From: Siphonodentalium dalli
Taxonomy: Eukaryota > Mollusca > Scaphopoda > Gadilida > Siphonodentaliidae
Direction: 5' to 3'
NCBI GenBank assembly: GCA_032622095.1
Contig: CP136061.1
Span: 25,918,991 to 25,982,990, forward strand
DNA length: 64,000 bases
A model generated the notes under the pieces. That model was not told the DNA's origin. It made no database searches and saw only the letters and a program-made list of their open reading frames with translations. The position numbers were made by a program, and so were the translations under genes. Below are positions 26,604-56,654 of the stretch, one piece after another. The stretch's first letter is position 1. Each line of letters begins with the position of its first letter.

Positions 26604-28362
26604 TCAGAGTTTGGGCAGTTCCTTAAATGCACACTTGAGATATAATGCCAATCTCCGCAATATACTAATATTTTCAATCGACAGAAGTCTATAAAACTTT
26701 TCTTTGCTGTGATATTTCCAGTAATATTCCGGGATATATTTGATTCGGATATCATTAAGGTGTGAACTTGTAATTACAAAGTGGTATTCATCTCCTATTC
26801 CGTCATTACATAATGTACAAACTCTGTCATTCCGTTTTGATTTTTTCCACCGTCCACTTTCAATTGGTAATCGATGATTTGATGTCCTAATCTTAACAAT
26901 GCATTCGGCTAAATACCATGGAAGTTCAGTTAGATATCTTCTGATCGCCGGACGTACAGAAATACTACCATAGAAACCACCCCTTGATGGTGTAGCTACA
27001 TTTCCCAACCATTCCTGGTTAAACTGATCAATAAGTATGACCTTTATTCGTTTTACATCCGAGTGTGTTAGATCCCTCCTGCTCGTGAACATGGAGTTCT
27101 TTCCAGTATCTTGGAATGTCTGCTCTATAAACCGGAGCCATTTGAGGTCTCCACTGCTAGGCTGATTTCGATAAACGGTCAGTATTAATGTACACATATT
27201 TTTGGCGATAATCGAGCCCTCATTTGACATTAATTTCGACCAATACGTTAAGATTCTACATTTTATTTCAATTATTAAAGGATGGCGACCTAATTCTCCG
27301 TATACCATATAGATTGGTGTACTTTCTTTCATACCCATGATTATCTTGCAGAATTTGAGATGTACACTTTCGATTGATTTACAGGGTTCAAACCCCCAAA
27401 CTTCACTGCCATATAATAATATGGGTGCTACCATCGTATCAAAACGATGAAGCATGATATCCACAGGTAGTTCTAATTTTCTTACTTTATTCAACAGTGC
27501 ATACATCGCCTTCGTGCCAAGTTTGCACGTTTTCTTAATAGATCTACAAAATCTTCCTTTAAAGAAAACATTCACACCCAGATACTCAAATTCCTTTACC
27601 GTTTCCAAAGGTTTACCATTGAATATAAATGTCGGTACAATCTTAGGTAATCTTTTACAGAATATCACAACGTTTTTTTTTTATGCATTAACTTCTAGAC
27701 CCCATGCGTCCGCATAATCACTAAATGCCTGAATCGCTCTGTGCATAGTTGCCTCGTCGTCTGTCATTAGTACGGTATCATCCGCATATAACAAACATAA
27801 TATACCCACAAAGCATTTCAAATTGTCAAAAAATATTTCATCGAGATACTTTTAATTTTCGACCGCACAGTTACTGATAAATTCCTGCAAGTCATTCACA
27901 AATAAGGAGAACAAAAAAGGAGACATTAAATCTCCTTGAAAAAGGCCTATGTTGCTGGCAAAAAATTCAGAACGTTCTTGTTCTTTTTTCACACATGTTT
28001 TTATCTTGCTATACAGATTCCTCACTACCCTAAACAATTTACCATTTATTCCATTTTGCTGCATTTTAAGAAATTATCCCTCTCTCCACACACTATCGTA
28101 TGTTTTTTTTTAAATCTACAAATGCACAATAAAGTTTGCGCCCACTTACAAGATACATGTTAATGATATTGTGCAGAATAAATACATTATCAACAGTTGA
28201 GTGCTTTTTCTTGAACCCCGTTTGGTTTGTACCAATGAGACCAATTTCATCAGACAATTTGGAAAGTCTTCTATTCAAGATTGATGTAAACATCTTAGCG
28301 AAACAACTCAATAAAGTTATCCCCCTATACGAATCGGGGCTCTCACGATCACCGCTTTTCGA
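26604..28362 (-). mobile_element. Non-LTR retrotransposon reverse transcriptase, 5'-truncated and broken
   Basis: Read on the minus strand the pieces follow the order of a reverse transcriptase. SGDRESPDSYRGITLLSCFA and FKKKHSTVDNVFILH with VDLKK lie at about 28362-28093. KEQERSEFFASNIGLFQGDL and SPFLFSLFVNDL follow (28064-27852). The catalytic box LLYADDTVLM is near 27790. A 354-codon frame (27668-26604) holds the thumb region, NHRLPIESGRWKK and a CTLCNDGIGDEYH zinc-binding tail. Breaks: a frameshift in the poly-A run near 28105, another near 27850, and a stop next to another A run near 27685. The arrangement fits the CR1/jockey/L2 group, but the clade is not settled. There is no endonuclease domain: the element stops where the palindrome at 28361 begins. 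It is not active. Confidence 0.9.
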
Positions 28363-31275
28363 GAGTGGCTAAAATGCAAGCTTGGCGCCAAGCTTGGCAG
28401 TTTTTAAGGCAGGTGACTAAAAGACAAGCTTGGCGTTTTCAAATTTTTAAAAAGCCTTTTAAACGCTGTTTTCGGGTGAATTATGCGGGAATAGCACCAG
28501 TTAATTACTTATATGGCCCATTTTCGTAAATTAATCGACAATAGTGGCAGTAATGTCCCCGATTGGTTGGTTAATAGGGGGCGTGGTCACAAAATCAAAA
28601 CATCGTCTTTTTACGCAGATTTCTTGTCGGTTTTTGGTCGATTTCTCTTTTTAAACATCAGTTGGACTAAGTTTTTTATTCGAAACATGTTAAATGGTTA
28701 TCATTTATCACTCTCATAGTCGAGCTTGGCGGTTTTGAACATTATATACAAAGAATTTTTGACTTTTAGATGACCGACCACCGAACCGCCAACCTCGAAT
28801 AAAAAATCAAAATATTAAGCTGAATTTTCGCCGATTTCTCGTTTCTAAAACACGTTCCATCTAGTTTTTATGTAAAAACGTGTAAACTGATTATCATTCT
28901 TCACAAATATAATCGGGCTTGGCGGTTTTGAACATTATATACAAAGATTTTTTGACTTTTAGATGACCGACCACCGAACCGCCAAGCTCGAATAAAAAAT
29001 AAAAATATTAAGCTGAATTTTCGCCGATTTCTCGTTTCTAAAACACGTTCCATCTAGTTTTTATGTAAAAACGTGTAAAATGATTATCATTCTTCACAAA
29101 TATAATCGGGCTTGGCGGTTTTGAACATTATATACAAAGAATTTTTAACATTTTGATGACCGACCACCGAACCGCCAAGCTCGAATTTTAAATCAAAATA
29201 TAAAGCTGAATTTCGGCCGATTTCTCGTTTCTAAAACATGTCCCAGCTATTTTTCATGTAAAAATATGTAAAATCATTATCGTTCTTCACATATATACTC
29301 GAGCTTGGCGGTTTTTAACATTGTGTACTTAGAATTTTCGACTTTTATATGACCGCTCACCGAACCGCCAAGCCAAAATGCAAAAGATACCCAGACCAAA
29401 CCGAGGCAAAATGATACCCACCAAATATTGTCAACGTGTACCCATTAATGATCGTCCATGCAACTAATCAAACTTGTTCAATTATGTTATATTCTTGTTT
29501 CGATGTAGCATTGTGATTTAAATGGCACGTATATATAAGATAAGTTAGTCGTGTGTGGAACGGTCACAATGATAATATACATTAATTCCAGAGGGCAAAC
29601 TGTAATATAATTTAATTCTCCATTCACATTAAATTATTATTATTATTATTTGTTTTTGGGGGGGGGGATTTGACCCAGGAGGATTTGAAAGGACCTGAGA
29701 CGTCATTTTTTCTTTCTTTTTAGTGTAAACATATTTTTATTTCGAAAAAATGACGTCTCAGGTCCTTTCAAATCCTCCTGGGTCAAATCCCCCCCCCCAA
29801 AAACAAATAATAATAATAATAATTTAATGTGAATGGAGAATTAAATTATATTACAGTTTGCCCTCTGGAATTAATGTATATTATCATTGTGACCGTTCCA
29901 CACACGACTAACTTATCTTATATATACGTGCCATTTAAATCACAATGCTACATCGAAACAAGAATATAACATAATTGAACAAGTTTGATTAGTTGCATGG
30001 ACGATCATTAATGGGTACACGTTGACAATATTTGGTGGGTATCATTTTGCCTCGGTTTGTTCTGGGTATCATTTTGCATTGGCTTGGCGGTCATATAAAA
30101 GTCGAAAATTCTAAGTACACAATGTTAAAAACCGCCAAGCTCGAGTATATATGTGAAGAACGATAATCATTTTACATATTTTTACATGGAAAATAGCTGG
30201 GACATATTTTAGAAACGAGAAATCTCAGGAAATTCAGCTTCATATTTTGATTTTTTATTCGAGCTTGGCGGTTCGGTGGTCGGTCATCAAAATGTCAAAA
30301 ATTCTTAATATAAAATATTCAAAACCGCCAAGCTCGAGTATATTTGTGACGAATGATAATCATTTTACATGTTTTTACATAAAAACTAGCTGGAACGTGT
30401 TTTAGAAACGAGAAATCGACGGAAATTCAGCTTAATATTTTGATTTTTAATTCGAGCTTGGCGGTTCGGTGGTCGGTCATCTAAAAGTAAAAAATTCTTT
30501 GTATATAATGTTCAAAACTGCCAAGCCCGATTATATTTGTGAAGAATGATAATCATTTTACACGTTTTTACATAAAAACTAGATGGAACGTGTTTTAGAA
30601 ACGAGAAATCGGCGAAAATTCAACTTAATATTTTGATTTTTTATTCGAGCTTGGCGGTTCGGTGGTAGGTCATCTAAAAGTCAAAAATTCTTTGTATATA
30701 ATGTTCAAAACCGCCAAGCCCGATTATATTTGTGAAGAATGATAATCATTTTACACGTTTTTACATAAAAACTATATGGAACGTGTTTTAGAAACGAGAA
30801 ATCGGCGAAAATTCAGCTTAATATTTTGATTTTTTATTCGAGCTTGGCGGTTCGGTGGTAGGTCATCTAAAAGTCAAAAATTCTTCGCATATAATGTTCA
30901 AAACCGCCAAGCTCGACTATGAGAGTGATAAATGATAACCATTCAACATGTTTCGAATAAAAAACTTAGTCCAACTGATGTTTAAAAAGAGAAATCGACC
31001 AAAAACCGACAAGAAATCTGCGTAAAAAGTCGATGTTTTGATTTTGTGACCACGCCCCCTATTAACCAACCAATCGGGGACATTACTGCCACTATTGTCG
31101 ATTAATTTACGAAAATGGGCCATATAAGTAATTAACTGGTGCTATTCCCGCATAATTCACCCGAAAACAGCGTTTAAAAGGCTTTTTTAAAATTTGAAAA
31201 CGCCAAGCTTGTCTTTTAGTCACCTGCCTTAAAAACTGCCAAGCTTGGCGCCAAGCTTGCATTTTAGCCACTCTC
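28361..31275. mobile_element. Foldback element: 1.35-1.5 kb inverted arms with 193-bp tandem repeats
   Basis: A 2915-bp palindrome. Outer ends are GAGAGTGGCTAAAATGCAAG and its exact inverse. The loop is only 33 bp (29712-29744), between CGTCATTTTTT and AAAAAATGACG. Each arm contains tandem 193-bp units: CTTGGCGG starts at 28725, 28918, 29111 and 29304 on the left, while the inverse CCGCCAAG lies at 30132, 30325, 30518, 30711 and 30904 on the right. The right arm therefore has one more unit. Every unit is itself framed by AGCTTGGCGGTT and AACCGCCAAGCT. A 68-codon frame (MAHFRKLIDNSGSN...) occurs once per arm in mirror image (28513-28719 plus; 30917-31123 minus) and is of unknown meaning. The design recalls Drosophila FB/Galileo foldback elements; the sequence is unrelated as far as I can tell. 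Confidence 0.9.
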
Positions 31276-33078
31276 TAAATTGGTTAAGAGTTTCGTCCCC
31301 AGCGACAGCCATTTTTCTGGGTTTTTCACATTTCTAAAAATAGACAGCGGGAGGTTCTGGCAGCGTTCAGACATAGCGTAGCGAGGGAACTGAACACTGT
31401 TTGCAGCTTGACCTGGAAGTTGCAGAAGACAATTATACACAAGGACATTGGGTAAATATTTTTACACGAACACAAGTGAAAAACGGTACATGTGTGATTT
31501 ATATATGTCACCATATTCTATTTGTATACTGAATTTGATTAACTTCTAAGGATTTTTGTATTTATTAGAACGAACACAAGTGGGAATCGCGCTTGTTTTT
31601 CGTTGTTTAGTAGCATATAGTACACCCTGACTGCAATTGAGGGTGGTTCTTAAACAAGGCAATTGCGTATTCAGATTAATTAACAGATGTGTTGGCGACA
31701 TAATATTATGACTTATTGTCGAATTCACGCCATGAATATTAAAACCAAATCATGGTGTGATATTACATGGGGGAGGCTTGAGAGAAACGAAGCCGATTGG
31801 GCGGCCATCCATCCGATTTGACACCTCAATATAACATTTCTGCAGCTTCGGTCCTCAAAATATATACTCAAGAGTCGAGGAAACTGTCCCACATATTTCG
31901 AATTTTAAAGATATTTATTTTTACCTCTTTAGAATTTGTTGTCGGGTCGACAATAAATTATTCTTTAACTGTGTGTATGCTTCCATTGGCTAACACTGGC
32001 AAACATTGATTAGCGTTCTTTGAATATATACACAATGCAAATATATTAAACACATACGGTATATACATGGCAAATACTAGTTGGTGAACCCAACTATTCA
32101 AACAGAGCTAGACGCTCTCGAATAGTTGGGCCGCCGTAGCTTTATTCACGACCTCCAAGTGCTTTTCCATTATTATGAATTTTTCCCCCACTTATAACAT
32201 GAAAATACAAACATTGTATATAAATTATGTTGAAGACTAATCTGTTCTGAGTGAGTATCAACAAGCTACCCGACGAAAAAAATAAAAATGTGACATTTGT
32301 ACTTGTTTTAAAAATACATGGTAGACTGCTTGCCGAAAAACTATTTCGGGAAAAAAATAGACACTACCCCGCCTCATTTCAATCACCAAATTCACATATA
32401 ACTAGATGGTTTTATCTGCTACCATTATGTTGTAAGGTCAAGTGATAGTGGCAGATTACGAAGTCATTGTGTACAATACCTGACTCTTGAAATATAATCC
32501 GAACTTTGAGATAAATCCGAGACCGTTAATTTGTCAACATTTAAAACTTGATCTGTAGTAAATTGACGGAACGGAAAAGGCGGAACGAACTTTCAACTAC
32601 ATAACCGGAAAGGAGATCAGATAATTACGGGAACGATCGACCGAGTGAAAGCAACAGCAACAAATCATTTTTGAATTTTAAGTTTTAATAAACAATGGAG
32701 TTTGATTTCAAAGAAACAATGACCAAGGGCGTGGCGATATGTGCGGGGACACAATATAAAGTGTAAGCCAAGGCCGTGGCCGGCTCCAAATAAAATGTGT
32801 AAACGGGGTGTTATATGTTTGGACCGTTGTTTCTCAATGGATATTAATGAAATTTTGTATATATGTACGGGCTGAGGCATGGAATACACTAACGTTTGAA
32901 CTGTTTTTAAATTCACAAATTTGTCAATTTTCTTCAACTTTTTCGTTCTGGAACACACATTAATATTCAAATAGTGGTCTCGGTATCAAACGCCCAAGTT
33001 CCGACCACGTCGCCATCGCTATGCTTACATAAGATTTACGTGCCAAAGCATTAGCGACAATATGGAGTCGAAACCGAG
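31276..33078. other. Stretch with no recognised gene
   Basis: Next to the palindrome, a minus-strand ATG (31312) reads MAVAGDETLNQFREWL across the palindrome edge before a stop; it may be the start of a host exon cut by the insertion. A short inverted pair CCAACTATTC/GAATAGTTGG lies at about 32090-32130. Otherwise nothing recognised. Confidence 0.45.
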
Positions 33079-39639: not shown

Positions 39640-39865
39640 ACTATATATTTTGAGACTTCGTATATATATGTGTATGTGTGTACTTCATAGAATCCAAAAC
39701 GCGTGTACATATTGAGCTCAAACTTCCTATGTAAGTGTCAAATCCCACCGACACGACCGTGGTCGCGGTTTAGGGAAGCCCAGAGCACCCGTTCTCCAAT
39801 CTCTGTCACAAAAAACGGCACTGCGGTGGTTAAGACATCAACGATCTTTATATTGACCTTACACG
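39640..39865 (+). mobile_element. Helitron 5' fragment, plus strand
   Basis: Repeats the 5' sequence ACTATATATTTTGAGACTTC and the GACCGTGGTCGCGG block, then switches abruptly near 39865 to minus-oriented 122-bp units. Confidence 0.6.
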
Positions 39866-40255
39866 GCTCGGTGACCAGATAAAATTCATATCCGGGGCAA
39901 GATACATTCACATAGCAAATTTCAAGTCGATACCTCCACAGGTTTCCGAGATTTGGTCTGCGCATGCGCGAAGATGGCGTCGCACGGGCTCGGCGACCCG
40001 ATAAAATTCGTATCCGGGGCAAGATACATTCGCATAGTAAATTTCAAGTCGATAGCTCCACCCGTTTCCGATATATCGTCTGCGCATGCGCTGCACGGGC
40101 GTCGCACGGGCTCGTCAATACGAAAACGACGACCGCCTGGTCAAACTAGACACACGTACCAAGTTTCGTCCCGATCGGTCGAGAATCGTAGATTTGTATA
40201 AATGACAGACAGACAAACAGACACACAGACAGAGGTCTTCAAAATATATATGAGA
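39866..40255 (-). mobile_element. Helitron 5' part with 122-bp repeats, minus strand
   Basis: On the minus strand it begins TCTCATATATATTTTGAAG at 40255, immediately after the CTAG of the next element. It contains CAGACAGACA-type runs, GATCGGGACGAAACTTGG, and then 122-bp units with GCGCATGCGC at about 39960 and 40082. Its own 3' end is missing. Confidence 0.7.
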
Positions 40256-40821
40256 CTAGCCGATGAGCCCGACGTTGTCCGGGCTATTCAAAAACCAAAT
40301 TTCAAGTCGATAGCTCTACCCAGCCCGACGTTGTCCGGGCTATTCAAAAACCAAATTTCAAGTCGATAGCTCTACCCGTTTCCGAGATCTGGTCTTCTCA
40401 TGCGCGAATCTGGCGTCGCACGGGCTCGGCGACCCGACAAAATTCGTATCCGGGGCAAGGTACATTCACATACCAAATTTCAAGTCGATAGCTCCACCCG
40501 TTTCCGAGATCTGGTCTGCGCATGCGCCAAGCTGGCGTCGCACGGGCTCGGCGACCCGATACAATTGGTATCCCGGGCAAGATACATTCACATAGCAAAT
40601 TTCAAGTCGATAGCTCCACCCGTTTCCGAGATCTCGTCTGCGCATGCGCGAAGCGGGCGCCACATGGGCTCGCCAATACGACAACCTCGACCGCCTGGTC
40701 AAATTACACACACATACCAAGTATCGTCCCGATCGGTCGAGAATCGTAGATTTGTATAAATAACAGACAAACATACAGACAAACATACAGACAAACAGAG
40801 GTCTTCAAAATATATATGAGA
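40256..40821 (-). mobile_element. Helitron, 566 bp, minus strand
   Basis: The 5' end on the minus strand is TCTCATATATATTTTGAAG at 40821. The 3' end is the hairpin AGCCCGGACAACGTCGGGCT, CATCGG and CTAG at 40259-40256. Inside are three 122-bp tandem units (CATGCGC at 40399, 40521, 40643), each containing GCGCATGCGC and AAATTTCAAGTCGATAGCTC. The downstream neighbour starts at once with TCTCATATA, giving a CTAG|TC junction. Confidence 0.82.
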
Positions 40822-41119: not shown

Positions 41120-41154
41120 CTGGTTGAGATCATTCAGAGTTCATATAAGAAATG

Positions 41155-41935: not shown

Positions 41936-43218
41936 ATATTTTGAGACTTCGTATATATGTGTGTGTGTACTTCATAGAATCCAAAACGCGTGTAAAGATT
42001 GAGCTCAAACTTCCTATGTAAGTGTCAAATCCCACCGACACGACCGTGGTCGCGGTTTAGAGAAGCTCAGAGCACCCGTTCTCCAATCTCAAATCACCGC
42101 AAAGGCACGGCGGGGGTTAATCAAGTGATTATTTAATGAGCGTTTGTTTTTGACGCATCTCTATAAAGAGCGTCTGTTTCCCATTCAACGTTATTCGCAT
42201 CTGCAGAGTTATACGGGAACGCAAACGTTATCGCTCGAAATTTATTCCCTGCGAGCACGGATGGCGCGCTTTGATTTTACAGTATATATATACCTTCGGT
42301 ATATACCGAAATCATCCCAGATAATCACGAATATAGCATCAGATTTCTCCCCAGATATACCGTTATAAAGCTACTGGAATCTGCCAATCTACGGGAAATT
42401 CCAGGGAATGCCGATTGAGCTCAAACTTGCTACCTACGGGAAGTGTCATATATATGAGTGTGTCCTTTATAGACTCTAACCGATTGAGCTCAAACTTGCT
42501 AAATAAGTAAATAGCCCCCAAGCCGTAAATATCAACAACAACAATATTGCTACCTACGGGGAGCAACGTTATTAGCATCTGCAGAATTATGCAGAGAGAA
42601 AGTGCTTTCCTATTTTTAGAACGCAACACATGTTTACGTCGCGTTGGTGATTGAGGTTCACAACGGGGTTAATTGACTGTCCGCTCTTTGCGACGATGAG
42701 GTTCACGGCGGGGACTATTGACCAACACTCACAATTTCGTCTTTTGCATCAGATACCAACACCTCGACCGATCGGGACGAAACTTGGTACGTGAGAGTAG
42801 TTTGACCAGGTGGTCGTCGCTGTCGTATTGTCGTATGCGCAGACGAGATCTCGGAAACGGGTGGAGCTATCGACTTGAAATTTGCTATGTGAATGTATCT
42901 TGCGCCGGGTACAAATTTTATCGGGTCGCCGAGCCCGTGCGACGCCCGTGCAGCGCATGCGCAGACGAGATCTCGGAAACGGGTGGAGCTATCGACTTGA
43001 AATTTGGCATGTGAATGTATCTTGCGTCGGCTACAAATTTTCATGCGCAGACCAGGTCTCGGAAACTGGTGGAGCTACCGGGTACAAATTTTTCTTATTG
43101 AAACACGTGGAGCTAAAAATTAAAAAAAATATATATAAAAATGTCATGTTTCGGACAAGCCGCCGGTGGCGGGCTAACCTGCTAGACGAATGCCGCCAGT
43201 GGCGGGCTAACCTGCTAG
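41936..43218 (+). mobile_element. Complete non-autonomous Helitron, plus strand
   Basis: Inserted between A (41935) and T (43219), as Helitrons are. The 5' end is TCTATACTATATATTTTG. The 3' end is present twice in tandem: hairpin GCCGCCGGTGGCGGGC plus CTAG at 43182-43185, and hairpin GCCGCCAGTGGCGGGC plus CTAG at 43215-43218. Two 122-bp units (GCGCAGACGAGATCTCGG at 42837 and 42958) lie near the 3' end. No protein is encoded. Confidence 0.85.
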
Positions 43219-43685
43219 TATAATATAAATGATTCGCGAAACGTTCAAATTAAAAACTGAAGTGTACGAGTGTAGCAGTCATCATAATTTGGTTGTTTGC
43301 GCTTGAAACTTATTAATGAAAGTCTGATCTATAACAGCATAGCACTGATATTGGTAGTGCGAAGGCACCAGCTTGCGGAAGAATATCGGCAAGTTATAGA
43401 CTTCACCAACTTTGTAACTGAACATAAACATTTAAATGTTATATTTGAGTGCGTTTTGGTGCGCATCGTTTGATCTCCCACATGGAGCCTCACCTATCTT
43501 CTATCCTATATAATTTGAGAACTCCGTGTATTCGAGAGATAGCCCACACCCTCCGGACCTCAATGATATGATCGTGAATGAGTATTGATATACCCCACTA
43601 ATCTTTGACAAACACCAGTAATGGTGTGTAGATCATTTACATATATCTCCTATATATTTTGATACAATCTATCTAATTTACATAT
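43219..43685. other. Stretch between Helitrons, no gene seen
   Basis: AT-rich sequence without an open frame of note. Near 43500 there is a decayed copy of the Helitron 5' sequence (ATATAATTTGAGAACTCCG). Confidence 0.45.
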
Positions 43686-44339
43686 CTCTCTTATATATTT
43701 ATGTTTGTGTGTGTGTTGTACATCATACAAATCTACGATTCTCGACCGATCGGGACGAAACTTGGTACGTGTGTGTAGTATGACCAGGCGGTGGTCGATG
43801 TCGTATTGGCGAGCCCGTGCGACGACCGTGCAACGCATGCGCAGACGAGATCTCGGAAACGGGTGGAGCTATCGACTTGAAATTTGCTATGTGAATGTAT
43901 CTTGCGCCGGATACAAATGTTATCGGGTCGCCGAGCCCGTGCGACGCCCGTGCAGCGCATGCGCAGACGAGATCTCGGAAACGGGCGGAGCTATCGACTT
44001 GAAATTTGCTATGTGAATGTATCTTGCGCCGGGTACAAATTGTATCGGGTCGCCGAGCCCGTGCGACGCTCGTGCAGCGCATGCGCAGACGAGATCTCGG
44101 AAACGGGTGGAGCTATCGACTTCAAATTTGCTATGTGAATGTATCTTGCGCTGGGTACAAATTTTATCGACGAGCCCGTGCGACGCCAGCTTCGCGCATG
44201 CGCAGACAAGATCTCGGAAACGGGTGGAGCTACCAGGTAAAAACATTTCTTATTGAAACGCGTGGAGCTAAAAATAAAAAAAAAATATAAAAAAATAAAA
44301 TGTTTCGGACAAGCCGCCGGTGGCGGGCTAACATGCTAG
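43686..44339 (+). mobile_element. Helitron with four 122-bp units, plus strand
   Basis: Starts near TCTCTTATATATTTATG and runs through TTGTACATCATACAAATCTA and GACCGATCGGGACGAAACTT. Four tandem units of 121-122 bp follow (GCATGCGCAGACGAGATC near 43838, 43960, 44082, and a variant at 44198). The 3' end is hairpin GCCGCCGGTGGCGGGC and CTAG at 44336-44339. The next element follows at once. Confidence 0.78.
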
Positions 44340-45300: not shown

Positions 45301-46345
45301 TCATTTGCGGATACCTCGGCCGGTGATGAGTTAACGCGACATCGGCCTGTTAAGAGTTAACGCGATCACGTCACGATATGTTGATGGCGTAATATATTTT
45401 TTTACGCAATGATTTTCGATGATCGAAGCATGGTCCTGCGTTCTTCCCGATAATTAAAGTAGAAACTTTAAACGTACACAGGCGTGTGATGCATCATTGG
45501 AAAGATGAAGCCACACAGATTCTAACCGTGTAAATTATATGACTGGCAATTTATTATTCGCGCTATATCGAATCGATTTGTGAGCACCGAACTGAAATAT
45601 ATTAGCGCAAAACGGCGTAAAAACAGATTTGACCTCGGCACGTGAAAAGTTGACCTCGGATCTGAAAATCAATAGGCCTATGTTACTCCTGACCCGAAAA
45701 TATCCCCACATACCAAGTTTCATCGAAATCGGCTGGGCCATTTTCGAGTCCATCGATTACACACACACAGACAGATACACACACACCCTTGTTTGTATAG
45801 GTTACGTTGCGGGGACCCCATGAGAAACCAACCAGAAACCAGCGTTATGGGGACACATGTTTCCCATGGAGCTACAGGGTTGATATATTCACAAGTGATG
45901 CACAGTGTCTCGGTATTGTACTAAATTGTATAATTAGTTAGCTCTATAACTATATTTTCAAAGGGACCGTAGTTGTGGGGACACATTGTGAGGACGTCCT
46001 CATATGGCTGGTTCGATTCATTACTTCACTATTATGCACAACATCTGGAAGTCCATACATTGTAAGGACATTTGCATGTCCCCACAATGAAGCACACAAG
46101 CACAGATTGTTTCATAAACTAGTTACGTCATGGGGTCACATTACGGACGTACTCACAAAAATGGTTCCATTTATTACACACCTCCCATATTGTTTGACTC
46201 GGGTCCCCACCACCGGATCAACTCGGCGATAGACAATGTTTTATGGATTTAAACAATAACAGAGTAGGGTTATTGTTTACATCCATGAACACATCAACAA
46301 TGTGGCGCGCAGAGTTAATCATATGTAATGCCATGGGAGGCCCTT
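45301..46345. repeat. Mixed old repeats, no gene
   Basis: 45620-45800 is a transposon tail with ACCAAGTTTCATCGAAATCG and CACACACAGACAG. 45815-46215 contains several GTGGGGACAC/GTCCCCAC words in both orientations (45976, 46078, 46203), probably another old element. No coding frame is supported. Confidence 0.5.
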
Positions 46346-47100
46346 TTCACATTTATTATTCATTTACGCTTTGCTTAAGCGCAAATAACCTCTTATCATT
46401 TTCGCTTAAGCACAAATATTTACGCTTAAGCGTAAATCATTTGCGCTTAAGCGCAAATCATTTACCTTAAGCGCAAATAAAAATTAATATTCATTGATCC
46501 CCCTGAATTAATTTTAAATGGCACAGGCCTAAACACATCACTCAAGTCTATATAGGCCCACCATATGAGGGAAGCAATCCCCCAGTAACCCCTAGATTCC
46601 TTTTATGACCATGGAAATGGTAGATCTGTGCAGGGTATGTCTCTTTTATAAAATATACTAGATCTCTGGGATGGAGACACAAATTGATGGAGACAGGGAT
46701 GCTGATAATATGAAAATAGGGTTTTTCCCCCTATTTCAAGTCAATAAGTACACCATATAAGGGAAGTAACCCCTAATTCCCTTTTTATGGCCATGGAAAT
46801 GGTATATATCTGTACAGGAGACGTCCCTTTAATAAAATATACTAGAGCTCTGGGAATGAAGTACCAATTATTCGGACACCAGGGACAGAGATGCTGATAT
46901 GCATATGGAAATATGTTTTTTTTCAACTTTCGAGCCTGTATGGGGCTATTACTATGGGCCCATAATAATATACTATGAGATGGACTCAATCATTCACAAT
47001 CAGAGAGAAGTAAGGGAGTGGTAAGTATTTCCGCTTAAGCGCAAATAAATTGAGACACATATTTGCGCTTAATTAAGCGCAAATAAATAATAAATGTGAA
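46346..47100. mobile_element. TIR element with AAGCGC palindromic repeats
   Basis: Ends are TTCACATTTATTATTCATTT on the left and the near-exact inverse AAATAAATAATAAATGTGAA on the right. Next to each end are copies of a short palindromic word: TTTGCGCTTAAGCGCAAA and variants, six or so on the left (46372-46480) and two or three on the right (47030-47085). The interior (46545-46990) is the inverted counterpart of the repeat family at 35250-36110. No transposase. No clear target duplication. Confidence 0.7.
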
Positions 47101-47851
47101 GTATCTGAAGGGATGAATCAATACTTTTTGGATACAAATTGTGTCAACATGACACCAAAAGTGCATGCGAATGCATAACATCATATATCCGTAAAATTCA
47201 ACCAGAATTTCATTGTAACGTCAATTCTGAATTAAACGGAAATGATCATCGCTGTTATCTAGCTGACTGAATCGCAAATCAGATAGGTTGTCGGATGGGT
47301 CCATTCGAATATTCAAATTCAATTTAATGTAGCTTTTAAAGTGGTGTACATGTGAAAAGAATGTCTGTAGGTTCGTTACCGACTTCGGTGTGGGTCATGT
47401 ATGGCGGCGAGAAGAACTGTCTCTCGCGAGGAACCTCATCTCCCTATGGGGGACTCGGTTGTACCATCGCTTTTCAACAGGTCTCTCGCCGCCATACATG
47501 ACAAATACCTCGGTCGGAAACTAATACTTACCATGACCCTATGCGAAGTTTCAGAAATTCGAACATTGCCAGACCCAAATTCGAACTTAATCAGTGCATT
47601 GTATAGAACTCAAGTTATCATCTGAACAACTCAGAAACAAAATATTCCATATTGAAAAAGGGCAATAACTCAGTTGAATATTGTCTGAATGGAACCAATT
47701 TCTAATTTTAGTCACGTCCTCTTTTTATTACGATACCTAACAAGTTTGGAGGTGATTGATTAATAAATACTACACTTGTCAATCGGATAACCCCCAAAAA
47801 ACTACATATTCTTCAAATAAGTTGAAAATGTACATACATCGGTCAATAATA
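47101..47851. other. Stretch with a 19-bp inverted pair
   Basis: No gene recognised. At 47394-47502 the word GTCATGTATGGCGGCGAGA is followed about 70 bp later by its perfect inverse. The remainder is AT-rich. Confidence 0.55.
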
Positions 47852-48055
47852 CAGTAATGCTCTAATTAATCGACCCCTTCGCCACAGCAGAATTATGGGT
47901 AACTTTTCAGGATTTAGTCGGAAATATGGCTTGTTGCCATTCATTGGAAAGCTCTCGCCGAGAGCTTTCAGGTGAATGGCAACAAGCCATATTTCCGACT
48001 AAATCCTGAAAAGTTTTCTGCTGTGGTTAAGGGGTTGATTAATAGAGCATTACTG
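47852..48055. mobile_element. Palindromic Tc1/mariner-type MITE, 204 bp
   Basis: Flanked by TA (47850-47851 and 48056-48057). It starts CAGTAATGCTCTAATTAATC and ends with the inverse. The inner palindrome is built on GGCAACAAGCCATATTTCCG and closes on CTCTCGCCGAGAG. Related to the element at 35647 and, through its ends, to the MITEs in the 3.67-kb units. Confidence 0.88.
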
Positions 48056-48057
48056 TA

Positions 48058-49494
48058 GTTGTTGGGCCGGACCAAATGTGATATGTGTTTACTTGTAATT
48101 ATACCACATACCAACATTTGATGCCATTGATAAATATACCATTCAGACAACGAAGTTTGATTGATGGGCATAAAGATGGATGCTGGGGCCTGGGGACACT
48201 TATATTCGTGCTGAAATTGTACCCTTCGTCTAGACAATGTGACTACCTGGGATCAAACAGGTTAAAATGTTTTGGCATTTCAGTGTCTGCAGTTGGCTGA
48301 TAGAAGTGAAGCAATTGAGGTCTACCAGAATATGAGTAATTTCATCCCCAGTGATATATCACAATATTTTGTAACAATAGGTAGAGTTAAAAGTGTCCCT
48401 TCCAACTTAAGATGGCCAACGTAACAGCTTCAATAAGGTGGGAAAAATAAATAAAACACCTATCAACATAGATAACCAATTTTTGAGGATATCTACAAAT
48501 AGTCCGTAAACAATTTACAACATGCAATGGTTTATATCGATTACTACAAATGAATTAAGGAGTTTTCTCCAAAAGTGACCCAGGATTGTGAAACATGACT
48601 GAAATTGTTTGGACAACACATTGAACACAACAGTTACAACAACAAGTGAAATCATGTTGTGTAACATATCATCGGACGGAACATTTTTAATATATGTACT
48701 GTAGTACACACAAGGGGCACTGAAATGTCCAAAATTGCAGTGCTAAGCCAAATGGTAGCAGTTTCCAACTCTAACAGTGGTCATAAACATCAGCTTGAGG
48801 TCCCACATGTACATTATAGCCATTAAATATATAGCACCATATAATTTTACTAAAAATGTCATGTCATATTTTCATATTTGTGACAAATTTATGTTATCGA
48901 AAAATTATCAATAGTCAGCCCGATATTCACAATTTGATGACACCTGGAACTCTGTCAAGTTGACCACATTTAAGATGCCAATAAGCCCATCTCATAGAGT
49001 TAGATTGAATGACGAAAATTGATTCAACATAATTTTATTCACAGAAAATAAAATTAACAGTTATTACAATATGAAACAAATAGCAAAAGTGACAAAAACA
49101 TGCTTCTTATACTCAGAAGACATTATTTAGACATATTGAAACCATAAAGCCAATCTACAGCTAGGTGTCAGTTTTCCACTAACTTTTAAAACAACTCAAT
49201 TTTGTTCTGACATGTGATAAAACTTTACTGCATTGTAACTAATTTATCATTCTGATTTGAACAAAGTATGCCTTTTCACAGCACATAAATATAGAAGATA
49301 GCAAATATATATTCAATTTCCAAACTCACTGATGGTGAAATGGTAGCTAGAATTTGTCTTGCCATCTCAATTGAAAAGTGTAATGCCCACATCAATTAAA
49401 AGGGCTAATGTAAATTATACATACATTGTACAAAACAAAAATAATATTAAACAAAATGACAAATAAATCTGAACCACTAGTAATTCATACAAAT
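48058..49494. other. Stretch with no recognised gene
   Basis: About 1.4 kb of AT-rich, unique-looking sequence with no exon or repeat I can support. Confidence 0.5.
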
Positions 49495-49561
49495 TATGTC
49501 AATTCTACTTTAATAGTGATCATATAAATTATATGATCACTATTAAAGTAGAATTGACATA
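49495..49561. repeat. Perfect palindrome, 33-bp arms, 1-bp loop
   Basis: TATGTCAATTCTACTTTAAT... is followed after a single A (49528) by its exact inverse. There are no mismatches in 33 bp and no spacer, so the structure is either very young or maintained. Confidence 0.93.
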
Positions 49562-49850
49562 CTTTATATGATATAACACAGACACCCAGAATACTATGAC
49601 ATCAGGCCAAAATTTGGTGTAGAAGATAATAATTGTCATCTCTTTGGAGCTTTGTATACATGTACATATATTTAAGGTCAAGGTCAGATGAGGTCTTGTG
49701 AATCTTACAGTTTTTGTAATTTTTATCCCAGTCAGAATAATTGTCAGCAAGTGAAGTACATACTACATAGTAAAGTTAACTATCAACATGAACTGCATTT
49801 CATATAGCTCCCAATGGTTGTGGCTACGACAGACATGTGAGGGTGTCAGA
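49562..49850. other. Stretch with no recognised gene
   Basis: AT-rich sequence, nothing recognised. Confidence 0.4.
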
Positions 49851-51118
49851 CCGATTCTCCGAAGACCTATTACTACGAAGGCCCACAACTCCGAAGACCC
49901 GATTCTCCGACGGCCCACAACTCCGAAGACCCGATTCTCCGACGGCCAATAACTCCGAAGATCCGATTCTCCGAAAGCCCATAACTCCTAAGGGACGATT
50001 CTCCGAAGACCTATAACTCCGAAGACCTATAACTCCGAAGGGCCGATTCTCCGAAGACCTATAACTCCGAAGGCCCGATTCTCCGACGGCCCATAACTCC
50101 GAAGGTCCGATTCTCCGAAGATTTTGTTTTATCGGTGAATTATCGTTTACTAAATAGTGTACAGTCCAGTGGCGAAGCCAAGGGGTCCCAAAATTCCTAC
50201 TGCCCCCATTAAATCTCTACTTGCTATTTCAGACAATATGGGCCCCTACCAAAACATGTCCAATGTCATGTAAACGCCCGGAAATCGTTCATGGGGCATC
50301 AACATATTCAAACTTTTCCTACTGCCCCCACCTAAATGGGAATTCTGGCCCGCCACTGATGATACACCAGATACTATAACGTTACGTTGGCCCATGAGAT
50401 GCCAGAGTAAAATGTACAGGGGTGAACGGGGAAGAACTTGTCCTTTTTTCATATATAAAATGAACTTGATTGCATCAAATCACCCCAATGCAGTCGGATG
50501 TGCACAGTTTAATCATATTAATTGTATTAAGACGTACATTGTGGCAAAATAATTGTATTTCTTACATAAATTTAAGCATTCTGTGGAAAATTAAGGCTTG
50601 TCGCACACTACTGGTGGTGTAGATATCACCTTATTATAATACATAGTTAACGTTTCCAATATATGAGGGCCCCTTCCCCCCTTTTCGTACGCCGGATTCC
50701 ACCCATTTTGGACCGTACGCCGGATTCCAGACGTCAATTTGAAGCTGGACGCCGGATTCCAGGGTTAATTTGAAACTCGACGCCGGATTCCAGTGTCAAT
50801 TTGAAGCTGGAGGCCGGATTCCATGGTAAATTTGAAGCTGGATTCCTGATTCCAGGGGGGGGGGTATATTATCTACATGTACATGTTCCATACAAAATAT
50901 AACCATACGCGAGGGATTTCCGGACGTTTACATGACATTTGACACGTTTTTTGGGGGGCGGTCTTCCCTAGGGCCCCATTGACTCCGTCACTGGACTGTA
51001 CACTATTTAATAAGCGATAAAACATGATCTTCGGAGAATCGGACCTTCGGAGAATCGGCCCTTCGGAGTTATAGACCTTCGGAGTTATGGGCGTTCGGAG
51101 TTATAGGCCTTCGGAGTT
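49851..51118. mobile_element. Inverted-repeat element with minisatellite ends
   Basis: The left end is an array of CCGATTCTCCGAAG and ATAACTCCGAAG words (49851-50120). The right end is the inverse array (51030-51118). Both are followed inward by matching non-repetitive inverted sequence: GTTTTATCG..., TAAATAGTGTACAGTCCAGT, and further in CATGTAAACG(C/T)CCGGAAAT. The inside also has a 31-bp minisatellite. No protein frame. Tandem repeats at the tips of inverted arms recall foldback elements. Confidence 0.8.
50691..50850 (+). repeat. 31-bp minisatellite, five copies
   Basis: GCCGGATTCC at 50691, 50719, 50751, 50782 and 50813; the unit also contains CAATTTGAAGCTGGA. Confidence 0.9.
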
Positions 51119-51674
51119 TTGTGTTACGTCATTCGTAGTATTTGACCCGGAACTCGGCTGAAGGTTAGGCTATTCAGCCTATTGCGTCGAATTACGAAAT
51201 CGCGTTTTGAATGTTTCTCTTTTCCCGCACGATAAAAAGAGGTCTTCGCACGAACCAAAAATGATAAAACTTCCCAATTTATAAGTAAAAATACCCAAAT
51301 GAAGGAGTCTATGTAGGTCCCGAAGGAGTCTATAGACTCTTTGATGTAGAGTTCTGATGGAGAAAATGTAGGTCGATCTATTTTTGTCATAACTCTGACG
51401 TATTTTGACCTGGGAGAAAAAATCGAAATCGAGGCTCACTACGAGCATGCCAGTTTTAAATATAGAAACAGGGAATCTCGACAAATGGCGATATCGGCGA
51501 CAAACAAATAATCGAAAACAACACATAAAATAAACATAGCAAAAACGGGGCACAGTAAAAATGTCAGAACGCCACGAGGTTTTACGTCGTTTTTGATGAC
51601 GTCATGGAGTGAAACGGAGTAGAGTGACACCAACGTACGAATTTGTCTGATCGCCATACACTCTTAACAAATTA
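51119..51674. other. Stretch with no recognised gene
   Basis: Contains a 20-bp direct duplication (GAAGGAGTCTAT at 51300 and 51322). Overlapping minus-strand frames up to 124 codons were inspected and show no recognised domain. Confidence 0.45.
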
Positions 51675-52159
51675 GGTTCCCCGAAGAACCAAATATGGTT
51701 CCGGGGAATGTCTCCTATGTGGAACCAGTTAAGAACCAACCAAGAACCAACTTTTGGTTCTTCAATTAGGTTCCCCGAAGAACCAAATTGAAGAACCCAA
51801 AGTTGGTTCTTGGTAGGTTCTTTATAGAACCAAATTGAAGCACCCAAAGTTGGTTCTTGGTAGGTTCTTTATAAAACCAAATTGAAGAACCCAAAGTTGG
51901 TTCTTGGTAGGTTCTTTATAGAACCAAATTGAAGAACCCAAAGTTGGTTCTTGGTAGGTTCTTTATAGAACCAAATTGAAGAACCAAAAGTTGGTTCTTG
52001 GTAGGTTCTGTATAGAACCAAATTGAAGAACCCAAAGTTGGTTCTTGGTTGGGTTCTTTATAGAACCAGTAGGTTCTTCAGTTTGGTTCTTGATTGGTTC
52101 TACATTGGTTCCACATAGGAGACATTTCCCCGGAACCAAATTGGGTTCTTCGTGGAACC
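51675..52159. mobile_element. Inverted-repeat element with 47-bp tandem repeats
   Basis: Ends of about 50 bp are inverted: GGTTCCCCGAAGAACC...GGTTCCGGGGAATGTCTCC and its counterpart GGAGACATTTCCCCGGAACC...GGAACC. Between them are six copies of a 47-bp unit (CAAAGTTGG at 51798, 51845, 51892, 51939, about 51986, 52033). Each unit contains GGTTCTT and AGAACC in inverted sense, so the whole element can fold many ways. No protein. Confidence 0.85.
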
Positions 52160-53138
52160 AAGTATCCCACCACCCGATTCTCATTTTCACAGCCTTTAGG
52201 GTATGATAACTTGACACAAAACTTTCCATCTGTGGACATTTGAAAAATGGCCATGTATTTTATAACTCAAATTATATATTTATATCTGTTAATGTACAAC
52301 AAACATTTAAAAACAATATCTGAGGAAAACTGATTTCATAACCATGCAAAAACAAAAGAAAAATGTTTTATCAACATAAACTTGGGTTTAAAATCGATGC
52401 AAATTTTAGTGCCTGGCAAATTGCATATCACCACATGAATACTACTTGGTGTGGTATAACTCAAAAGTATAACAGAATCGTGTTGAAAATAATCGGTTCA
52501 ATCAGCATATGAACAAATTTAAATTAAAAATGCAGGATGTCACAATTCATAACTCTGCCAAATTTCATCTTGTTATACCGCCGTGCAAGTTATCTAAAAA
52601 ACTAGTGGGCTTTTTCTATTTGGCTGCTACACTACAGGGTTTTCTCGGTATAATTACCATGTCGGTTGATAATCGTAATCTTATTGTGATTAAAGATAGA
52701 TTATCTCTTCGTAACACGGTCGATATAGTTTCCTAGTTATAAAATAATGAGTCGAAGACCCCTAATGATATAAATTATTGGGTCAGTTTATCGGGCTAAT
52801 TTTAGAACGAATTCCTTCAAAATCGTGGAAACGTACGGAAATGTTCGGGTGTACTCGGCAATTAGGCCTACTACATAAAGCATCACCGATTCGATACATT
52901 CATAAATTTGAAACAAGCCCGGCAAAAATAACCGAATACTTTGGTCATCGTAATGGATTGAGATAATACGCACGGACGTACTCAGGTACATTACAACATA
53001 TATAAACCACTTTATTATTCCGTTATGTGCAAACAAAACACACATACTTTAGTTTTAGCTGTGTTTTATTCGCTAATAAACCTATTGCAAGTCGTGTGGC
53101 CGGGAAGAGATAATCTATTATCTATCTATTTTATCCTC
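52160..53138. other. Stretch with no recognised gene
   Basis: AT-rich single-copy-like sequence. A plus-strand frame at 52509-52736 has no recognised domain. Confidence 0.45.
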
Positions 53139-56100
53139 TGTATAGGGACATTATTACATGGATGTGCATATTTTTTATGATTCATTGTTTATCCTCTGTG
53201 ATGTCCTAACATTTAATTACCAGGCTGGAAAGAGAATTCCCCTTTAAGTTTGCAAACTGTCACACTTTAAGCATGTTATAACACTCAAAATACAGTTCTC
53301 CAAAACATTTGTTCCATAGTCAATTATCAAGAAAAGGCACAAAATACAACAGCATTATTAAAAAACTTGTTACTTCTTTTTAAAGGATTTGTCTAGTCAA
53401 CATTTTTATCCTCTTGATTGATGCCCGCTGTTCCACTGATCACCATGCCAAAAACATTTTTGCGATAGGCCGATCACAACTGAAGTTATGCCGATCTAAA
53501 AGTCATTAATGGATTTTCGAGTCAGAATCTTATTTAATGTACTGTGCCGCCACAGAATGGACGAGTGACGACACGTAGCGGCGAAAGACTTGTAAGGATG
53601 GCTGTTTATCTACCGCGATGTGCGACAATATCTTATTGTTTATGCATACGTCACATACGGTGTAGGCGTCGCACATATATAGTCGCAAATAATATCTGAC
53701 TAAATGCCGTTTTGGGGTAAAAAATATGCTAATTGTTTTATTTTTCGGTCCCGTTCGCCCCAAATTTCTTAAAGGGGCACAACTAATTATAGTATATAAC
53801 ATATAACCAAATGATCGGACCTTCGGATGTGATATTGTTTACATACATGTAATCGGACCCGAGGAATCTTATTAATTAGGTCCCATCGACATCATATGTT
53901 TAAAAGGGCATTCGTAATTACTTTAATTAATTAATTAATTACTTAAGTAGTTAATAAATAATGATATACGCAAAATGGTTGCAATCTGGTCAGTGAAGAT
54001 TGAAACACGAGGATAACTTGGCCGGAGTGTAGTGAAACAAGGGGTACGCATCTAAGATGCTTTTGTCGAGTTTTTTGGCAGTCGAACCAAACTTCTGCCA
54101 ATAAGGTGCACAACCCCCGGGAAAAAGAGTTGGACGGTGGTATATTATTGCAATAGACCTATATACCAAATATTAATTGAATCCGTTAATATTTCATTGA
54201 GTTATCGCACGAACGGTGATAAAATTGTGATTAAATTAGACAAACTAAGACCCATAAGTCCGGAAAAAAATTCGGACAAACCAGCTTTTCGAACTCGTCA
54301 AAGATATTGTTGCAATAGACTCATATACCAAATATAGTTTAAATCGGTTAATATTTCATCGAGTTATCGCGCTAACAGTGATAAAATTGCTAAAAATAGA
54401 CAAACTAAGACCCATAACTCCGCGAAAAAAATTTGGACAAACCTGGTTTTCGAACTCGTTCGAGATATTGTTGCAGAACACTCATATACCAAATATTGTT
54501 GAGATCGGTTAATATTTCATCAAGTTATCGCGCTAACGGTGATAACTTTGCTAAAAATAGACAACCTAAGACCCATAACTGCGCGAAAACAACTCGGACA
54601 AACCTGGTTTTCGAACTCGTCCGAGATATTGTTGCAGGAGACTCACATACCAAATATTGTTGAAATCAGTTAATATTTCATCGAGTTGTCGCGCTAACGG
54701 TGATACAATTGCTAAAAATAGACAAACTAAGACCCATAACTCTGCGAAAAAAATTCGAACAAACCTGGTTTTCGAACTCGTCCGAGATATTGTTGCAGGA
54801 GACTCATATACCAAATATTGTTGAAATCTGTTAATATTTCATCGAGTTATCGCGCTATCGGTGATAAAATTGCTAAAAAATAGACAAACTAATACCCATA
54901 ACTCCTCGAAAAATATTTGGACAAACCTGGTTTTCGAACACGTCCGAGATATTGTTGCAAGAGTCTCATATACCACATATTGTTGAAATTGGTTAATATT
55001 TGCGTGAGTTATCGCGCTATCGGTGAAAAACTTAACTAAAAACCATCCAAGATGGATAACTCTTGTAAAAAAGGTTCGGACATGGCCCATTTTATACAGG
55101 CAGTAAATAGTCATTGGGAGCAACTGCCATACCAACATTTTTTTGAATCCGTTCACAAATGTCAAAGTTATAAGGCATTCTTTAGGTCCGTCCGCCCGCC
55201 CGCCCGCCCGCACGCCGCCGCCCGCCAACCGTCCCTCGCCAAACCATAAGTCGAGTTTTTGAAAAACTCGACTAATAAATTACGTTGACCCATGACGACT
55301 TAAAAGTGCAAACATGACGAATAAAGAGCGTTTGTTGTCAGCTTATAAATAAATTATGTAGGAAAATTGGTAGAGGTGGGTGATATGAGCTGACGAGGGG
55401 ATGTCATTGGATAGGAGCCTTTGAACTCAAATGTCTCAAACGGGGACCAAAAAAGTATACTAGGAATAAAGAGCGTTTATTAACAGTTTTTGTGGGAAAA
55501 TTGGTGCTCGAAAGTAAAATTATTTAATTAAATTTATTATTAGGGCATCTGATGTAGATGTAACCTATTTAATAAGATCAAACATCTATACCAATTGTTT
55601 TACATATATTCTAAGCAGATAATGAACGCTCTTTATTGTTCACGATGACGTCAGCTCAGATCACCCACGTCTACCAATTATCATACATAATATATTTCTA
55701 AGCTGACAACAAACGCTCTTTATTTGTCATGTTTGCACTTTTAAGTCGTCTTGGGTCAACGTCATTTATTTCACTACACTCCGGCCAAGTTATCCTCGTG
55801 TTTCAATCTTCACTGACCAGATTGCAACCATTTTGCGTATATCATTATTAATTAATTAATAAATTAAAGTAATTATGAGTGCCCTTTTAAGACATCTGAT
55901 GTCGATGGGACCTAATTAATAAGATTCTCCGGGTCCGATTACATGTATGTAAACAATATCACATCCGAAGGTCCGATCATTTGGTCGCTGGCCTCTAATT
56001 ACTATAATTAGTTGTGTCCCTTTAAGAAATCTGGGGCGAACAGGACCGAAAAATAAAACAATTAGCATATATAAACCCCAAAACGGCATTTAGTCAGATA

Positions 56101-56654
56101 TTATTTGCGACTATATATGTGCGACGCCTACACCATATGTGACGTATGCATAAACAATAAGATATTGTCGCGCATCGCGGTAGATAAACAGCCATCATTA
56201 CAAGTCTTTGACCGCCACGTGTCGCCACTCGTTCATACTGTGACGTCACAGTACATTAAATAAGATTCTGACTCCAAAATCCATTAATGACTTTTAGATC
56301 GGCATAACTTCAGTTGTGATCGGCCTATCGCAAAAATGTTTTCGGCATGGTGATCAGTGGAACCGCGGGCATCGATCAAGAGGATAAAAATGTTGACTAG
56401 ACAAATCCTTTAAAAAGAAGTAACAAGTTTTTTAATAATGCTGTTGTATTTTGTGCCTTTTCTTGATAATTGACTATGGAACAAATGTTTTGGAGAACTG
56501 TATTTTGAGTGTTATAACATGCTTAAAGTGTGACAGTTTGCAAACTTAAAGGGGAATTCTCTGTCCAGCCTGGTAATTAAATGTTAGGACATCACAGAGG
56601 ATAAACAATGAATCATAAAAAATATGCACATCCATGTAATAATGTCCCTATACA
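53139..56654. mobile_element. Large foldback element: 890-bp arms around tandem repeats
   Basis: Left arm 53139-54037 pairs with right arm 55769-56654. The outer end TGTATAGGGACATTATTACA is matched by its inverse at 56654, and the inner end CCGGAGTGTAGTGAAA by TTTCACTACACTCCGG. Mismatches are few. The 1.7-kb centre holds tandem units of about 160 bp and a second, nested inverted pair (55280-55410 and 55640-55765) around AATAAAGAGCGTTTGTTGTC. No protein frame is found in the arms. No clear target duplication. Confidence 0.88.
54140..55273 (+). repeat. 160-bp tandem repeats ending in a hairpin
   Basis: The phrase GACCCATAACTCCGCG or a variant occurs at about 54249, 54410, 54572, 54732 and 54893, each followed by CAAACCTGGTTTTCGAACTC, ATATTGTTGCA, CATATACCAAATATTGTTG and ATCGAGTTATCGCGC. 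The block ends with CGCCCG runs (55193-55213) and a perfect 12-bp-arm hairpin AGTCGAGTTTTT-G-AAAAACTCGACT (55249-55273). A hairpin after tandem repeats hints at a Helitron- or Helentron-like end, but no CTRR follows. Confidence 0.8.

Follow-up and report, generated by a model that had tools for sequence, protein, structure and literature searches.

The window analysed here (64,000 bp of contig CP136061.1 from the scaphopod Siphonodentalium dalli, positions counted from its first letter) holds, within 28 kb, four structures combining inverted arms with tandem arrays, here called E1 to E4. The arms and arrays of all four were confirmed, far beyond chance. The preliminary description had placed them roughly correctly, but the boundaries or relations of each needed correction. 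The features are as follows, those without a sign having no strand assigned.

28361–31275: E1, whole copy of a Mutator/Foldback-type non-autonomous transposon, ends GAGAGTGGCTAAAATGC...GCATTTTAGCCACTCTC, without target duplication in this copy
28361–28682 (+): left outer domain of E1, 99.4 % identical to the right one
28683–29373 (+): left array of E1, 3.6 copies of a 193-bp unit (Tandem Repeats Finder)
29374–30087: inner palindrome of E1, its core domains matching at 99.4 %; lacks the ~1-kb loop of other copies
30088–30953 (−): right array of E1, 4.5 copies of the 193-bp unit (Tandem Repeats Finder)
30954–31275 (−): right outer domain of E1, inverted-arm match, 99.4 % to the left one
46012–51125: larger dispersed repeat carrying E2, aligning with C3:184.34 Mb at 97.5 % identity across 5.1 kb; its right part is absent from the window
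49842–51118: E2, with minisatellite inverted ends, left end GGTGTCAGACCGATTCTCCG at 49842, right end truncated in the window
51659–64000: CACTA/EnSpm-like transposon, from its left end, CACTCTTAACAA, found in independent flanks, to at least the window end; linked to a transposase gene
51675–52159: E3, subterminal repeat block with GGTTCT/AGAACC motifs and 47-bp units, self-inverted match 70.4 %
53139–56654: E4, palindrome interrupted by an insertion, within the CACTA-like transposon; arms 53139–54040/55766–56654, 93.6 %
53139–54040 (+): left arm of E4, outer piece, inverted match to the right arm
54041–55274 (+): Helentron-like insertion between the left-arm pieces, edges uncertain by a few bases, with 160-bp units (54142–55042) and a CCGC microsatellite (55188–55226)
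55275–55395 (+): left arm of E4, inner piece, 92.6 % to 55649–55770 reversed
55649–56654 (−): right arm of E4, uninterrupted; the joined left arm is identical to it at 960 of 1007 positions
61952–62908 (−): transposase-like open frame, with a Pfam Transposase_21 match (E 9.8e-4) that falls short of the curated cut-off; four C3 places carry 96 % relatives
63393–63725 (−): SAM-like segment lying upstream of that frame, Pfam SAM_2 at E 0.016, a weak match below cut-off

E1 ends exactly at 28361 and 31275, and its inverted arms align over 28357–29373 and 30263–31279 with 95.7 % identity; the 193-bp units proposed earlier for the arms were found as arrays in both. Exact 26-base tips occur 382 times in the genome (187 and 195), compared to none for the reversed control, and the left outer domain reached a displayed identity of 100 % in all 40 places scored, the best 40 of 819 candidates. 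Among 15 copies with both flanks read, a 9-bp target duplication was perfect in nine, matched at 8/9 in two and at 7/9 in one, and was not present in three, the window copy being one of these; 0 of 90 mismatched flank pairs reached 8/9 or better. Three copies (L011, L014 and L017), whose right tip lies beyond the stretch read, are left out of this count. Conserved tips, together with duplications in most copies read, make E1 a true foldback family of the FB kind, as had been suggested.

The arms of E1 vary in a regular manner. Complete 193-bp units number one to seven per left arm (28 counted arms of 30), and first units are 98.3 % alike across copies, whereas the first and last units within one copy are only 85.3 % alike; middle units are 95.5 % alike across copies. 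Unequal exchange among the middle units would change arm length, and recombination between the arms could invert or remove the loop, which measures ~1 kb in other copies and occurs in both orientations. In the window copy no similarity between the 193-bp unit and the outer domain was found at E ≤ 1e-3; an array piece 76–81 % like the outer domain is present at 4 of 30 E1 loci. A stretch inside one E1 copy (L075) resembles, by eye, a LINE endonuclease. E1 is abundant in this 2.2-Gb genome, with many near-identical copies, and since its units vary in number and their positions can be read across copies, it offers a good system for watching foldback arms grow.

The 9-bp duplication, the conserved tips and the long composite inverted ends, whose tandem units vary, are traits of the Mutator/Foldback kind, which E1 fits. 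Galileo and the P superfamily duplicate 7 bp of target, and the 9 bp of E1 speak against this assignment. Target duplications of Mutator-like elements (MULEs) range from 8 to 11 bp (PMC6446971). A MULE transposase made elsewhere presumably cuts E1 at its GAGAGTGG ends, giving insertion with a 9-bp duplication. This partner is presumed, because no match to PF10551 (MULE) lay within 50 kb of the 100 tips listed of the 382 (C1, C2 and early C3), with 150 of 813 MULE candidates scored, 58 of them on C1–C3. An autonomous E1 was rejected for tip pairs 11.3 and 8.0 kb apart: interior samples consisted of arm and distant loop-like sequence, the longest open frame being at most 104 codons in 551 bases.

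E2 had been described as lying at 49851–51118. Its minisatellite-filled inverted ends stand, but the left end is at 49842, the right end is missing, and the whole is nested in a larger repeat. The arms (50015–50189/50971–51118) are 73.7 % identical and contain arrays of 16-, 32- and 48-bp units. Of 30 E2 loci, the window copy included, 28 have the left side in common at least as far back as 49346, which rules out a free-standing element here. Free copies do exist: their 8-bp duplications are perfect in three of five insertions and match at 7/8 in the other two, and one further copy is without a right end. Exact ends were found 161 times in the genome and never in the control. E2 is thus a genuine transposon, unrelated to E1, and its inverted ends are filled with minisatellite. 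It is very probably a cut-and-paste element with a minisatellite based on 16 bp in its ends, which jumped into the larger repeat and was then copied along with it. The target duplications of hAT and Merlin elements are 8 bp long; that of E2 is compatible with hAT, Merlin or MULE and does not discriminate among the enzymes that might move it. Among 100 listed E2 ends, one had a MULE match at 2.8 kb and three at 23–47 kb, MULE being the sole superfamily searched.

The inverted structure of E3 with its 47-bp units is likewise real, but E3 is not the separate element it was taken for. It is a subterminal block of the transposon starting at 51659, which also contains E4. E3 and E4 matches coincide at the same five places on C3; at the three of these where both were read through, they are colinear with the window. 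The left end of the transposon has five different flanks among six copies (the window, C3:18.93, C3:55.94, C3:56.81, and one flank common to C3:55.48 and C3:56.58) and occurs at three further loci. This rejects a plain segmental duplication, although the sequence that follows the 5.1-kb stretch on its right is common to all five C3 copies. Five transposase copies are 96–100 % alike, window included, and each of them is found at a distance of 10–40 kb from such an end, always in the same relative orientation, while the relative that comes next is 54 % alike; no transposase gene was found for the C3:56.58 copy among 125 scored matches. The ends are of the inverted CACT... type, at the left in the window and at both ends of a 3.4-kb relative at C7:125.78 Mb, the one complete relative read, which runs CACTC...GAGTG with TA on both sides. 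This relative has GGTTCT/AGAACC clusters at both ends and one stray motif between, in keeping with the direct and inverted subterminal repeats of CACTA/EnSpm transposons. E3 probably holds binding sites of the transposase. Counting against the CACTA-like reading, the Transposase_21 match stays under its cut-off, the window and C3 copies part at ~56765, and end and gene are 10 to 40 kb apart depending on the copy; the far end was not seen up to the window end or in the next 2 kb. The linkage of E3 and E4 to the transposase gene is strong.

The 160-bp units of E4 (161 bp by repeat search) had been placed between its arms. They lie instead in an insertion within the left arm, which resumes at 55275–55395; the right arm, being uninterrupted, shows the empty site of this insertion. 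The insertion family also occurs free, with 4705 candidates, of which 40 were scored, window included, all at 89 % or above. The arm ends of E4 are not conserved from copy to copy, a finding that the preliminary description had named as one that would refute its reading: the one-arm match starts only at base 242 in all five C3 places, and window positions 53128–53379 are absent from the three C3 copies with the junction read. Since the array is a nested family and the ends of the palindrome vary between copies, the reading of E4 as an independent foldback element was rejected. It seems that a palindrome was caught inside the CACTA-like transposon and that the array arrived with a rolling-circle-like element landing in one arm. 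In five copies of the insertion no target duplication is evident; the 3′ palindrome is intact in three, imperfect in one and missing in one, and the window copy has it. A T directly after CTAA, as in canonical Helitrons, was present in two of six copies read. Judged by its structure, the insertion is Helentron/HINE-like.

Taken together, the 28 kb very probably contain four repeat structures of at least three separate origins: a Mutator-type foldback transposon (E1), an unrelated cut-and-paste transposon (E2) and parts of a CACTA/EnSpm-like transposon (E3 and E4). The four had been viewed as sequence-unrelated elements of one design. No two of them are similar at E ≤ 1e-3, but two are parts of one transposon and the design is not single. 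A possibly undescribed group, in which all four families would belong to one foldback superfamily and depend on a single transposase, would account for inverted arms and tandem units in all four within so short a distance. It is nonetheless extremely unlikely given the pairwise dissimilarity, the 9-bp and 8-bp duplications and different ends of E1 and E2, and the tie of E3 and E4 to a CACTA-type gene, the E4 array being a nested element; ends, duplication length, transposase or sequence common to E1–E4 were looked for and none was found. The other proposal, a process such as template switching that locally turns any sequence into inverted arms with tandem units, could draw on the differing outer arm of E4 and on further inverted arrays at 39865–44232. 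A simple deletion in an ancestor of the C3 copies could, however, account for the E4 difference. As the tips of E1 and E2 recur exactly at hundreds of distant places, with target duplications in most copies read, their form is inherited by transposition and not made locally, and we consider such a process very improbable.

Tandem units do lie at or just inside the ends of E1, E2 and E3, and convergence is a possibility, if a tentative one: elements of different superfamilies may each have gained iterated two-way end repeats, repeated binding sites being favoured. TNPA recognises the subterminal repeats of maize Spm/En (PMC2613891), and the arm repeats of Galileo contain additional binding sites (PMC4079207). 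The sites in E1–E3 units are, however, putative, and the varying unit number of E1 fits neutral exchange as well. That three unrelated cut-and-paste lineages (Mutator-like E1, 8-bp E2, CACTA-like E3) independently filled their ends with two-way tandem units, the iterated sites raising transposition, is a doubtful proposition; were it true, the foldback form would have arisen repeatedly by adaptation rather than marking a lineage. The locus also calls for caution: what looks alike here goes back to a foldback transposon, to minisatellite ends, to the subterminal repeats of a CACTA element and to an insertion nested in another element.

The sea-urchin TU elements share the plan of E2, with short tandem units in inverted ends and 8-bp duplications, a likeness of plan and not of compared sequence. 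Sea urchin is named as a foldback host in the Tetris paper (PMC4079207). According to the same paper, Tetris of Drosophila virilis resembles E1 in description, its arms comprising an outer domain, a variable run of tandem units (~220 bp, compared to 193 bp in E1) and an inner domain; it makes 8–10 bp duplications, was put in Mutator by its authors, has no autonomous copy found, and is reported in three structurally complete copies, compared to 382 exact E1 tips (PMC4079207). Tm1 of root-knot nematodes, also compared by description, is a Mutator/Foldback element with composite inverted ends of variable length and 9-bp duplications, but it has a motif of ~14 bp and includes a copy that codes for transposase, whereas none was found for E1 (PMC3169594). 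E1 is presumably a new family, as set against such named systems rather than a full library of published transposons. Soybean Tgmt, a CACTA/EnSpm transposon, shares with the host of E3 and E4 its large size, the CACT ends and subterminal repeats in both direct and inverted orientation, and the tnp2-type transposase of such elements has a weak match here; Tgmt makes a 3-bp duplication, whereas here the ends start CACTC and the sole complete relative is flanked by TA (PMC2613891). The insertion in E4 resembles Helentron/HINE elements such as DINE-1 (PMC4067079) and the bivalve pearl-type elements (PMC5139131) in its subterminal inverted repeat, palindrome near the 3′ end, central tandem repeats, microsatellite and lack of an evident target duplication.

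Inverted arms with tandem arrays were present at all four sites for which the preliminary description had reported them (self-comparison, Tandem Repeats Finder). The arms of E1 and E4 are 93-96 % identical across 0.9-1.0 kb, and those of E2 and E3 are weaker (70-74 %). The window lies at C1:25918991-25982990 in a genome of 2.23 Gb and nine contigs. The likeness of the four structures is in part a coincidence of nesting and in part, perhaps, a convergence on repeat-filled ends. The features concerned are:

28361-31275, E1, foldback structure with 193-bp units in its arms
49842-51118, E2, element with minisatellite ends
51659, left end of a CACTA/EnSpm-like transposon
51675-52159, E3, repeat cluster next to that left end
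53139-56654, E4, long palindrome with a tandem array
61952-62908, minus strand, transposase-like frame

E1 has the anatomy of a foldback transposon with Mutator-type duplications. The tip GAGAGTGG starts E1 in all 30 fetched loci, and the exact 26-base tip occurs 382 times in the genome (187 forward, 195 reverse; reversed control, 0). The outer 326 bp of the arm gave 819 candidates, and the best 40, which were scored, each have a near-full-length match shown as 100 % (three additional matches were partial, one of them 81 %); because these were the best of 819, they overstate the likeness of the family. In 15 copies, 10 of them chosen from the listing as facing tip pairs less than 6 kb apart, both flanks were read: 9-bp duplications were perfect in nine, matched at 8/9 in two and at 7/9 in one, and were lacking in three, including the window copy (flanks CCGCTTTTC and TAAATTGGT). 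When left and right flanks from different copies were paired, 0 of 90 pairings reached 8/9. Of the MULE-domain hits from the genome search, in which 150 of 813 candidates were scored, none was found within 50 kb of the 100 tips listed of the 382; these tips are on C1, C2 and early C3, where 58 of the hits lie.

The run of 193-bp units varies in length among the 30 loci. The left arm could be counted in 28 and holds 1 to 7 complete units, most commonly 3 or 4; of the other two, L025 has no unit past the outer domain and the first unit of L016 is incomplete. In the 22 copies with at least three units, first units are 98.3 % alike between copies, first and last units inside one copy 85.3 %, and middle units about 95 % both within and between copies. 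This position-specific likeness indicates that the array gains and loses units chiefly towards its middle, the pattern expected from unequal exchange. A non-coding loop of about 1 kb is enclosed in several copies, in opposite orientation in L073 and L074; the window copy lacks it. At L012 (C1:166.065 Mb) an E1 copy adjoins the tip of another without target duplication. At C2:193655201-193665565 two E1 tip pairs, each of exactly 2987 bp, are shifted by 7.4 kb relative to each other, probably through a tandem duplication that includes E1.

E2 lies within a larger repeat, of which the part at 46012-51125 is present in the window; a C3:184.34 Mb copy matches that part with 97.5 % identity, and there E2 measures 1415 bp. 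At least 82 bp to the left of E2 are common to all 30 best-scoring loci (window included), and the sharing reaches 49346 or beyond in 28 of them, stopping at 49704 in L042 and at 49760 in L044. Six further copies, more diverged or partial, were fetched. One (C8:47.1 Mb) is also within the larger repeat and one is without the right end; four have new flanks with 8-bp duplications, perfect in two (GATTACTC, AAAGCAAT) and at 7/8 in two. Within the larger repeat, CATGTGAG stands on either side of E2. The new flanks and the duplications, that inside the larger repeat included, show E2 to be a transposon that was inserted there and then copied along with it. Its ends read GGTGTCAGACCGATTCTCC and, reversed, GGTTACGTAGCGATTCTCC, with the minisatellite next to them; the left-end pattern occurs 161 times in the genome (control, 0). 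Between the 100 listed ends and the MULE hits (150 of 813 candidates scored), one distance was 2.8 kb and three were 23-47 kb. At the closest of these (C2:169770111-169772893), a 401-base sample of the intervening sequence shows other palindromic repeats. In L047, one copy of the larger repeat, about 740 bp are inserted immediately to the left of E2, between what looks like an 8-bp duplication (window 49820-49827).

E3 and E4 had been described as two separate elements, which was not borne out. Long matches to the E4 arm occur at five other places, every one on C3; E3 matches the same five, and in the three copies read across both, colinearity with the window starts at about 51657. The window diverges from all five at about 56765, beyond which they are alike among themselves save for an insertion in two. 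Among the six copies the left end, CACTCTTAACAA (in the C3:56.81 Mb copy, CAATCTTAACAA), has five different flanks, one being shared by C3:55.48 and C3:56.58 Mb. It also occurs at three loci with a different interior, and TA precedes it at eight of the nine places. Of these three loci, the one at C7:125.78 Mb has the form of a complete 3.4-kb element bounded by CACTC...GAGTG; GGTTCT/AGAACC motifs cluster at both of its ends, with one stray between, and E3 is a motif cluster of this kind. To the right of E3 and E4, the minus strand holds the transposase-like frame (Transposase_21, E 9.8e-4, below the cut-off) and a weak SAM match. Among 125 matches scored of 177 candidates, the frame's protein has four relatives at 96 %, all on C3 and one with an internal stop codon; the next best is at 54 %, and C3:56.58 Mb, the sixth E3/E4 place, showed no such gene. 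Each of the five copies of this frame, that in the window among them, has an E3-type end at a distance of 10.3 to 39.5 kb, always in the same relative orientation. We read E3 and E4 as parts of one large CACTA/EnSpm-like transposon, in which E3 forms the subterminal repeats.

The tandem array of E4 came by insertion, since the central piece (54055-55285) lies inside the left arm, which continues past it at 55275-55395, and the right arm is uninterrupted; the joined left arm is identical to the right at 960 of 1007 positions. This piece alone has 4705 candidates in the genome, and the 40 scored (window included) are 89-100 % identical over the full query or the greater part of it. Both ends were read in five copies, which have in common a 5' ACAAGGGGTACGCATC (A for C in one) and a 3' CTCGACTAA; the palindrome preceding the latter is intact in three copies, imperfect in a fourth and missing from the fifth, and no target duplication was evident in these five. 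The central piece is most likely a nested rolling-circle-like element. In each of the five C3 copies, similarity to one E4 arm starts no earlier than base 242 (junction read in three). The ends of the palindrome are therefore not conserved between copies, a check that the preliminary description had itself named.

Other repeats occur in the window. An additional inverted pair, absent from the preliminary description, lies at 39865-40797 and 42763-44232 (arms with tandem units of about 122 bp, about 81-88 % identical), and weaker inverted matches (35242-36075/46542-46944 and 37289-37474/45143-45314) are roughly concentric around it. Similar 175-bp arrays at 11558-12099, 15221-15762 and 18893-19258 are spaced by about 3.67 kb, and an 81-bp array comes after each (at 13688, 17360 and 21123); together they make up a tandem duplication on a larger scale that contains the arrays. 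A very regular 49-bp minisatellite (8.1 copies, 96 %, Tandem Repeats Finder) occupies 23683-24079. The open frame at 9066-9641, which matches the alpha/beta hydrolase fold (Abhydrolase_3, E 8.7e-22), is likely a host gene exon.

The literature compared concerned foldback families, bivalve Helitron-type repeats and CACTA elements; in the portions of the open-licence literature available, compared by description and not by sequence, no description of these window sequences was found. According to the available part of PMC4079207, Tetris has three-part arms, units of about 220 bp and duplications of 8-10 bp; compared by description, E1 has the same three-part arms. MULE target duplications are given as 8-11 bp in the part of PMC6446971 available, and Tm1, as excerpted from PMC3169594, combines composite ends and 9-bp duplications with a Phantom-type MULE transposase. 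E1 is most likely a new member of the known foldback kind. The same excerpt of PMC3169594 relays a proposal by others that FB-like families arose independently from simple transposons through growth of their ends; the suggestion in the preliminary description of a process converting elements into this form is thus, as far as that excerpt goes, already published, as repeated convergence.
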